Below, piece after piece: positions 3,008-32,764 of a DNA stretch of 36,701 bases. The DNA is taken from contig PLTC01000146.1 in NCBI GenBank assembly GCA_003165295.1, positions 1,701 through 38,401 of the forward strand. Direction: 5' to 3'. Positions within the stretch are counted from its first letter, which is position 1; each line of letters starts with the position of its first letter. The DNA comes from Rhodospirillales bacterium (GTDB lineage: Bacteria > Pseudomonadota > Alphaproteobacteria > Azospirillales > Azospirillaceae). The notes under the pieces are model-generated. The model was not told the origin of the DNA. It searched no databases and saw nothing but the letters and a program-made list of their open reading frames with translations. The position numbers and the translations under genes are program-made.

Positions 3008-4168
3008 ATGATTGGAACAATGGATAGCGTCGATCATCGCCGTTCCGGCCTGTTGTTTGGAGCCCCTTCGGTATCGGGTCCGGCAAATCGGTGTGGTTCC
3101 CACGATGCGGCCGGTGAAATTTTTGGTGGTAGCCGGCCTGATTTGAAACATCTGCAAAAGGAACTGACCCTCGGCCCGGGCTTCTTCGTGGCGATGGGAC
3201 GGCCCGAGAAGGCCGGCGGCGACGATGAACCGGAACCGGAACCGGAACCGGAACCGGGACAGGGGGTTGGAGCCAGCCGCCGTGAAGAGTTGCGGCCCTG
3301 GAGCGAAGAAGAGAGAGAGCAGCTTCGGGCGCTGCATGCCCAGCGACTGACCAATACCGAGATCGCCGCCCGCCTCGGTCGTACCGGCGAAGCGGTAAGC
3401 AATATGAGCCGGCGGCTTGGCCTGCGGCGCCGGGACTCCGCGCAGCCCTGGACCAACGGTCAGTTGCGATTGCTCCAGCGGATGCTCGAAGACGGGTGCA
3501 GCCTGAAGGAAATTGCCGATCTTACCGGCCATCCGCGCTCCTCGGTGGCCGACAAGCTGCGCCGGCTCAACGTTCAGAGCCTGCGATTCCGGAGGCCCTG
3601 GACCGACCGGGAGCGTGAGACGGTCCTGGCCCTTCACGCCACCGGCGCCTCTCTTGCCGCCATTGCCCAGGCGGTCCCCGACCGCAGCGTTGATGCCGTG
3701 CAGCAAAAATTGCAGGAACTGGTCGGTCCGGCACCGTTCCGCTCCGGCCAGCGCGGCGCCCAGGACGCGATGATCAAGGCCAAAGTCGAACGCCCGGCGG
3801 AGCCGCCGTCGGTCGCGCCGTCATTCCGGCCGACCGCAAATTCCGGAGGGGCGCCGGCCCGTGCCGCCGTCCGACTGATCCGCGAGCGGCGGGAAACCAG
3901 GCCCACCATGGTTCCGGCCTCGGTGGACGAGATGGTCCGCTGGTTGCGCTCGCGGGACTTTATGGTCCTCCATCGGATGCCGGGCTGGCAGGTCGACCGC
4001 CATGTCCTCGAAGACGAACTCTCGCTGCTGGAGTTCGTCAATGTCCGTCGCCATCGGCTCAACCTGCCGCCATTCGTCATTCCCGGTGCGGCCGGCTGTA
4101 CCCAATCCACCGAACCACGGGCCACCGAACCACGGGCCACCGAACCGAGGGCCATCGCACCGGCCTGA
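3008..4168 (+). CDS. DNA-binding protein with three GcrA/Myb-like helical repeats
   Basis: A 386-residue protein with three repeats, each opening with PW(S/T) and ending in a three-helix unit, at about residues 96-139, 146-189 and 196-240. The key Trp falls at 98, 148 and 198, an exact 50-residue period. Repeat 1 (WSEEE...LTNTEIAARLG...RRLGL) closely resembles the N-terminal DNA-binding unit of GcrA, the sigma70 partner that reads CcrM-methylated GANTC sites; GcrA itself has one such unit. Before the repeats is a Glu-Pro tract (residues 74-83). After them comes a disordered stretch, a conserved-looking domain at about 295-360 and a degenerate TEPRA tail. The start is uncertain: neither 3008 nor the ATG at 3194 (residue 63) has a strong ribosome site. 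A regulatory role is inferred; no target is known. Confidence 0.75.
   Translation: MIGTMDSVDHRRSGLLFGAPSVSGPANRCGSHDAAGEIFGGSRPDLKHLQKELTLGPGFFVAMGRPEKAGGDDEPEPEPEPEPGQGVGASRREELRPWSEEEREQLRALHAQRLTNTEIAARLGRTGEAVSNMSRRLGLRRRDSAQPWTNGQLRLLQRMLEDGCSLKEIADLTGHPRSSVADKLRRLNVQSLRFRRPWTDRERETVLALHATGASLAAIAQAVPDRSVDAVQQKLQELVGPAPFRSGQRGAQDAMIKAKVERPAEPPSVAPSFRPTANSGGAPARAAVRLIRERRETRPTMVPASVDEMVRWLRSRDFMVLHRMPGWQVDRHVLEDELSLLEFVNVRRHRLNLPPFVIPGAAGCTQSTEPRATEPRATEPRAIAPA
3227..3256 (+). repeat. Five tandem GAACCG hexamers inside the triple-repeat gene
   Basis: Five consecutive copies of GAACCG encode an alternating Glu-Pro tract just before the first GcrA-like repeat. Such in-frame hexamers are prone to length change by slippage, which would alter the linker length without a frameshift. 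Confidence 0.9.
4107..4151 (+). repeat. Three 15-bp tandem repeats at the 3' end of the triple-repeat gene
   Basis: The unit CCACCGAACCACGGG occurs at 4107-4121 and 4122-4136, with a third slightly changed copy at 4137-4151. It encodes TEPRA pentapeptides in the C-terminal tail, so copy number can vary without breaking the frame. Confidence 0.9.
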
Positions 4169-28398: not shown

Positions 28399-29586
<1,188 letters not shown>

Positions 29587-30858: not shown

Positions 30859-32379
30859 TCAGCCGAAGAATCCGTGCAGGAACCACGGCGCCGCGCGGTC
30901 CGGCTGGTAGCGCCCGGAGCGGAACAGCCAGAACCGCCGGCCATCGGCGTCCTCCACCCGGTAATAATCCCGGAGGTCGCCCGGACCGCGCCACCATTCC
31001 GGCTCCAGACGTTCCGGCCCTTCGGCCTTGGTCACCCGGTGGACCACGCCCCGCCAGCGAAACATCAGGGGCGGATCGTCGGGCACCGGGGCCATCACCT
31101 CAACGGGCTCCGGTTGCCCCAGCAGGCGCAATGGTCGTGGCCGGTCGGCCGGCCAGTGGGCGCCGGTAAAGGGCTCCAGCGCCGGAACCCAGGCCACCGC
31201 GTGCTCGGGCCACCAGCTTGCCCGGGGCAGAGGCCGCCGCACCGTTCCCAGGCGCAAACCCAGCCGGTCGACCAGCCCCGCAAGATCGTCGGCGGCGGCA
31301 TCTCCGGCATCAAGGCCGCCGCCCAGACCGGGCTGGACCGCCGCCAGGGGTTCCACCAGGGGCGCGGCCAGCACCAGCACCTCCAGGCCAGCCCCCGGTG
31401 AGATGGTGCCGAGACGCTCGGCCAACAGGGTCAGCAACGCCGCCGGCGCCCGGACCGGCCGGCTGGTACCGATGGCGATCACCCGGGGCGGGTCGCCGCA
31501 GTCGGCATCCACGGGAAAGCACCACAGTTCTAGCCGGCGCGCCCCCTCCCCGGCCTTTTCCAGCCCGGCGCACAGCGAGGTCAGCAGACGCCGCACCGCC
31601 GCGGCAATTGCGTCCGCAGTGGCGATGGGTTCGGCAAAGGCCAGCCGCGCGATGTGGGCCGCGGCGGGTCGGCGGGGCGAAATCGGCTCGTCCTCGCTGC
31701 CCAGTGCCCAATCGAGCCGCCGCCCGACCTCGATGCCGAAGCGCGCGGCCAGCGAACGCCGCGGCAGCGGATAAAGCGCGCCGATCCGGCGGAGGCCGAC
31801 CCGGGCCAGCGCCGCCGCCGTCGGCGGCGGCAGACCCAGGGCCTCCACCGGCAGGTCGGCCAGAAACCCGCGCTGGCCATCGGGTGGAATCAGCGCCGGA
31901 CGCCAGCGCGCGGCGGCGCGGGCGGCGCCCGGCGTATCGGCGATGGCGACCCGCGCGGTGAAGCCGGCCCGACTCAGGCGTCGGGTCAGATCCTTGACCA
32001 GTCCCTCTTCACCACCGAACAGGTGGGCGCACCCGGTGATGTCCAGGACCAGGCCGTCGGGCGCCTCCACCGCCAGCCACGGCGTATAACGCCCGCACCA
32101 GTCGGCCAGCCCTTCGAGCGCCCGTGCACACGGCCCGGGTTCCGCCGGGACCACCGCCAGCCCGGGCACCACCGCCCGGGCATCGGCCAGCGTCATCCCC
32201 GGCCCGACTCCCGCCGCCGCCGCGGTCCGATTGACTGCCACCACCATCATGCCACGCCCGGCCCCACCCCCAACCGCGGCCACCACCACCAGTTCCCGCC
32301 CGACCGCCACGCCGCCTCGACGCTCGACGATATCGGTGGCAAGACGTGGCAGCCACAGGGACAGGATGCGGCGAGACAT
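30859..32379 (-). CDS. imuB: ImuB, inactive Y-family polymerase-like mutasome protein
   Basis: A 506-residue Y-family DNA-polymerase relative. The N-terminus MSRRILSLWLPRLATDIVERR replaces the catalytic acidic motif of true Y polymerases, and the later motif is VLDITGCAHLFGGE; both are typical of ImuB, which lacks polymerase activity and links ImuA and DnaE2 to the sliding clamp. The C-terminus has the family segments HRVTKAEGPERLEPEWW and DYYRVEDADGRRFWLFRSG, ending PWFLHGFFG. The ATG at 32379 (MSRRIL) is chosen; the frame above is not conserved. Contrary to the usual imuA-imuB-dnaE2 cassette, imuA is about 30 kb away and no dnaE2 follows. Only a degenerate LexA-like site (GAAC-N7-ATAC, 32400-32414) is upstream. 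Confidence 0.93.
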   Translation of the reverse strand: MSRRILSLWLPRLATDIVERRGGVAVGRELVVVAAVGGGAGRGMMVVAVNRTAAAAGVGPGMTLADARAVVPGLAVVPAEPGPCARALEGLADWCGRYTPWLAVEAPDGLVLDITGCAHLFGGEEGLVKDLTRRLSRAGFTARVAIADTPGAARAAARWRPALIPPDGQRGFLADLPVEALGLPPPTAAALARVGLRRIGALYPLPRRSLAARFGIEVGRRLDWALGSEDEPISPRRPAAAHIARLAFAEPIATADAIAAAVRRLLTSLCAGLEKAGEGARRLELWCFPVDADCGDPPRVIAIGTSRPVRAPAALLTLLAERLGTISPGAGLEVLVLAAPLVEPLAAVQPGLGGGLDAGDAAADDLAGLVDRLGLRLGTVRRPLPRASWWPEHAVAWVPALEPFTGAHWPADRPRPLRLLGQPEPVEVMAPVPDDPPLMFRWRGVVHRVTKAEGPERLEPEWWRGPGDLRDYYRVEDADGRRFWLFRSGRYQPDRAAPWFLHGFFG

Positions 32380-32764
32380 GGCAATCCGGGAAATATCATG
32401 AACGTATCCCATACATAATATGAAAACAGGCGGATTGCGAGTCCCGGTAGCCGGAGGGCTGACCCGCCCGCTTCTGATGGCGCGTCGCTTTTCCCGCTCG
32501 GGCAAAGTGCCGGACACAGGTCCGGGGCCGGCGGACAGAAAAAAGCTGGCGCTACCGAGCCAAAAAGAGCAGAAATAAACTATTCAAAAGAGCAGACCTG
32601 TCGGATAAATCGCGCTTTCCGTCATCGGTAGCACTCTATAAACCGAATATTATTATCCGTAAATTGCGATATCATCTCAGGAAGACTGGATAATAATATC
32701 ATTTATTGGGTGACTCTGAAATCATGCTCTTGGCATCTCTGGCTGATACCGGCGATGAAGACGA
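32380..32764. other. AT-rich spacer between the glycosyltransferase gene and imuB
   Basis: A 385-base gap with no gene I can support. The stretch 32520-32720 is AT-rich. The main structure is a 12-bp inverted repeat described separately. A degenerate LexA-like site sits about 20 bases before the imuB start. Confidence 0.5.
32647..32699. repeat. Perfect 12-bp AT-rich inverted repeat
   Basis: ATATTATTATCC (32647-32658) and GGATAATAATAT (32688-32699) are exact reverse complements, separated by 29 bases. They lie between the end of the glycosyltransferase gene and imuB. They could be paired operator sites, since a stem this AT-rich would be a weak hairpin. Confidence 0.6.

Follow-up and report, generated by a model that had tools for sequence, protein, structure and literature searches.

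An open reading frame at 3008-4168 on the plus strand of a 36,701-nucleotide window (the whole stretch of DNA that was analysed, from a Rhodospirillales bacterium) encodes a protein of 386 residues that is real and conserved, but known in kind: a predicted tandem helix-turn-helix (HTH) DNA-binding protein. It probably works as a local, sequence-specific regulator that binds double-stranded DNA with its modules set along one extended site, its own promoter being one likely target. The papers searched contain no description of this protein.

The given ATG is uncertain as the start codon; the stretch NEWMIGTMD around it is common to three species in the orthologue comparison. The N-terminal region (residues 1-93; 3008-3286, plus strand, as for all parts of the protein) is of low complexity, probably disordered, 32-44% identical to its orthologues, and contains an (EP)n run near 3228-3258. 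It leads to three HTH repeats, namely R1 (residues 96-145; 3293-3442), R2 (residues 146-195; 3443-3592), and R3 (residues 196-245; 3593-3742). A Pro/Ala-rich linker of variable length (residues 246-304; 3743-3919), with pLDDT mostly below 50, connects them to a C-terminal domain (residues 305-358; 3920-4081), and a variable tail with ATEPR repeats and the stop codon, 20% identical to orthologues, occupies 4082-4168. The repeats and the C-terminal domain are under purifying selection, with dN/dS values of 0.05-0.17 among three orthologues (about 0.1 for the C-terminal domain) against approximately 0.4 in the linker.

Tryptophans are found at positions 98, 148, 198, 312, and 327, and the initial annotation had taken the first three as marks of a threefold repeat with a period of 50 residues. 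This description was confirmed. Self-alignment of residues 91-245 gave by far its best result at an offset of 50 (mean BLOSUM62 score of 0.71), a score that none of 3000 shuffled sequences reached at any offset, and pairs among R1-R3 share 11-12 of 50 identical residues (z about 5), with no equally good result in 20,000 shuffles. The structure prediction proposed there as a check, run with AlphaFold on ten family members, placed three separate three-helix HTH units where the repeats stand (pLDDT about 80-93), followed by the disordered linker and a C-terminal domain of alpha-beta-beta-beta-alpha topology.

The whole protein scored 41.1 bits with the Pfam GcrA model (cut-off 26.9), a value summed from two repeats and a cut-off that no single repeat reaches, and 29.8 bits with Myb (cut-off 24.4). 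Profile searches of each repeat, also proposed initially with GcrA and Myb/SANT in mind, divided them: R1 (W98; GcrA 24.4 bits, HTH_38 21.9) and R2 (W148; GcrA 23.5 bits) gave their best scores with the DNA-binding part of the GcrA model, which is its first third, whereas R3 (W198) was better described by Myb (Myb_DNA-binding, 22.3 bits) and matched c-Myb R3 in the PDB search. From these scores and the structural model, together with the shuffles for R1, the repeats can be classed as GcrA-DBD/HTH_38-like, GcrA-DBD-like, and Myb/SANT-like, respectively. Against the PDB, the family profile found c-Myb (1h88) at E = 1e-8 and the GcrA DNA-binding domain at 1e-3; the early analogy with three-repeat Myb proteins therefore holds. 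Foldseek returned SNAPC4, Reb1, Cbp1 (2lvs), and c-Myb, plus the GcrA DNA-binding domain for one unit, and no match to the whole model reached E = 0.001. Since the trihelical HTH is common to GcrA, Myb, SNAPC4, Reb1, and Cbp1, GcrA is not singled out.

The C-terminal domain, 54 residues with the conserved motif WLRSRDFxVL...GWxVD...LLxFVNxRRxRLxLPPF, was predicted alone at a mean pLDDT of 93.9. It matched no Pfam family, and its assignment to a known fold was rejected, as nothing in the PDB fell below E = 1.4 and viral matches were weak. In a partial sampling that covered 289 genomes from the class and 398 from the phylum, the only convincing occurrence was in G041, a member of another family in which a single repeat precedes the same domain; other weak matches were short or lay in stop-containing frames. 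Proteins with three repeats are encoded in the window's genome (G000), G001, and G004 and by one copy in G002, while six paralogues in G002 and G003 have two, corresponding to R1 and R3, with R2 absent. A divergent relative occurs in G032, from another genus. Five copies of the family were seen in G002 (L009, L013, L015, L017, and L019, with two or three repeats), two in G003 (L010 and L014), and one in the window's genome. Family members retain the C-terminal domain while the number of repeats varies from one to three; this common part probably mediates self-association or contact with a partner. Public records of the family are uncultured Rhodospirillales MAGs, and the family is small, with almost all of its members in a single genus of uncultured bacteria. 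Outside the family, visual inspection suggests some seven consecutive HTH units of this kind in a hypothetical protein of a Sphingobium plasmid (L107, 916-2214), encoded next to a conjugative DNA-transfer gene, and, in one of a Priestia megaterium plasmid (L106, 1138-2031), three HTH units in tandem, an additional HTH, and one last unit at the end.

Upstream of the gene, the palindrome CTATCTCTATAGATAG (2895-2910), 97 bases before the ATG, is a candidate operator. It has the form CTATC-N6-GATAG, sits in an A+T-rich stretch, and is kept in three species, whose upstream alignment reads CTATC-NN-TAT-N-GATAG. In each of the three genomes it is the sole exact match, at the same place; matches with two mismatches are no more numerous than those of a reversed-pattern control. 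An RNA hairpin instead of an operator was rejected, as the fold of this region was not significant (z-score of -0.44). The simplest reading is that the palindrome would serve as a private operator for autoregulation. Directly downstream in three species is a gld-type ABC operon, with genes for an ABC ATPase, a permease, an ABC_transp_aux protein, and DUF4340; on the upstream side, a PAS-GGDEF gene is found in both the window and L024. Elsewhere in the window, 362-1261 and 30859-32517 appear by eye ImuA- and ImuB-like (a mutagenesis cassette), about 30 kb apart; the former has no Pfam match.

The initial annotation had further proposed that the protein, with several GcrA-like units, reads GANTC sites methylated by CcrM, an idea that now seems very unlikely. 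A resemblance of R1 to the GcrA DNA-binding domain does stand: both R1 and R2 match this part of the Pfam model, and the GcrA domain (5yiu) superposes on one unit of the predicted structure at 0.7 Å over 42 columns. With both CcrM and GcrA in the organism, methylated GANTC probably exists there. That GcrA, however, is a separate gene: the genome carries it complete, with both domains, on contig C52, and all four relatives in the genus have one too, which speaks against the proposal, as does the missing sigma-interacting domain. Nor does the likeness extend to the recognition helix. R33, N34, A35, V36, I37, G38, K39, and H41 are invariant in 27 GcrA sequences of the class; with A35 and V36 omitted as likely core, and conservation substituted for contact data, the alignment shows that R1 keeps none of the remaining six, R2 two, and R3 one. 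In a single-repeat tree of 46 columns and little resolution, R1 clusters with repeat 1 of the paralogues that have two, apart from GcrA (91/87). The GcrA model also scores plasmid tandem-HTH proteins, the Priestia (Bacillota) control falling just below the cut-off and the Sphingobium one above it, and GcrA is widespread in the class, whereas the present family is almost limited to one genus. As to ccrM, the gene is indeed in the window (28399-29568, minus strand) and was judged real, its best NCBIfam match being NF050803 at 607 bits, below the curated 830, but the linkage is not conserved. Each of the four relatives has ccrM on a different contig from the target gene, including G001, where the contig of the orthologue spans 188 kb (those of the other relatives are too short to tell); a conserved ccrM neighbourhood was accordingly rejected. 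Because ccrM is 24 kb away and absent from the 188-kb contig, the linkage looks accidental. GANTC is absent within 200 bases upstream in three of three orthologues, the sequences give no sign that the protein depends on CcrM methylation, and an epigenetic reading is unlikely.

GcrA consists of a DNA-binding domain (1-45), a linker, and a sigma-interacting domain (108-173) (PMC7403470), and the order of parts is the same here: N-terminal HTH, disordered linker, and small conserved C-terminal domain. That the protein is a sigma-70 cofactor working like GcrA, in which a new C-terminal domain replaces the sigma-interacting one, is nonetheless distinctly improbable. Only positions 3-51 of 155 in Pfam GcrA (PF07750) are matched, with nothing beyond position 51 in the sigma-70-interacting domain (profile positions about 94-152), and the PDB holds no structure similar to the C-terminal domain. 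The NCBIfam GcrA equivalog (NF050816) gave 10.6 bits against a cut-off of 280. The protein was rejected as the GcrA of this organism in view of the separate complete GcrA, the missing sigma-interacting domain, and the mostly lost helix invariants. An improbable origin, too, is a domesticated phage or plasmid protein whose role would be architectural or repeat-binding, comparable to that of Cbp1 at CRISPR arrays, and not the regulation of promoters. Such an origin would agree with the best PHROG match, a D5-like transcriptional regulator (phrog_323; E = 4e-23 over two repeats), with tandem-repeat HTH proteins on the Sphingobium and Priestia plasmids and in phage Goslar, and with the expansion of paralogues in G002. 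Yet the viral contigs searched hold no relative of the whole protein, for which a viral origin was rejected, and the chromosomal neighbourhood is stable, with the gld-type ABC operon adjoining in three species.

A local regulator, the interpretation favoured here, is consistent with nearest neighbours in structure and sequence that are tandem-repeat DNA-binding proteins, with the stronger constraint on repeats and C-terminal domain than on the linker, with a constant C-terminal domain beside a variable number of repeats, and with a palindrome that is conserved and exactly unique per genome. Judging from its anatomy and from Cbp1 and c-Myb, R1-R3, with short linkers between them, would lie consecutively on DNA and jointly recognise a single extended site; the flexible linker would carry the C-terminal domain, which may keep the protein assembled or bind a partner. 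The likely target, less sure than the rest, would be its own promoter region via the palindrome. Several observations argue against parts of this proposal, including the lack of a whole-model Foldseek match noted above. The palindrome points to a pair of identical half-sites, whereas non-identical modules in tandem would be expected to favour an asymmetric site, and the palindrome could thus belong to another factor; CTATC-N6-GATAG is missing from the two-repeat paralogues and the three-repeat copy of G002; and the downstream ABC operon could be the target instead. A more elaborate version of the local regulator is tentative and rather doubtful: a constant, new alpha-beta3-alpha domain would bear one to three HTH modules, the length of the site read would vary from member to member, and the member with three modules would govern its own gene from a private operator. 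If each module does recognise a few bases along one site, these natural variants with one, two, or three modules could serve as a simple bacterial system for examining how tandem HTH units build up specificity, a topic already addressed with Myb proteins and archaeal Cbp1.

Among known systems, GcrA, the sigma-70 cofactor of the Caulobacter cell cycle, likewise has an N-terminal trihelical DNA-binding domain, with which R1 and R2 score, but it combines one such unit with a sigma-interacting domain, while the present protein has three units and no such domain. Matches to the GcrA profile alone do not imply GcrA or methylation-dependent regulation. At least two HTH units of one kind likewise stand in tandem in the D5-like regulators of phages (phrog_323) and in other plasmid and phage proteins of the HTH_38 type, and matches to them showed no trace of the family's C-terminal domain. 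Myb/SANT proteins share tandem trihelical repeats of about 50 residues, each led by a conserved Trp. A classical Myb repeat has three regularly spaced Trp, whereas the present protein has one per repeat, and c-Myb and other R1R2R3 Myb proteins, Reb1, and SNAPC4 are eukaryotic, unlike this bacterial protein. Cbp1 is the best model for the mechanism. Its three HTH domains, arisen by duplication, follow a single DNA site from 5' to 3', and its relative Cbp2 has two (PMC10883916). The present protein resembles Cbp1 in its three tandem HTH modules with short linkers and in a repeat number that varies among relatives, but the NCBIfam Cbp1 equivalog (NF040595) gives 15.5 bits against a cut-off of 140 (E = 0.012), and Cbp1 comes from archaea, where it binds to CRISPR arrays, while the protein described here has an extra C-terminal domain.
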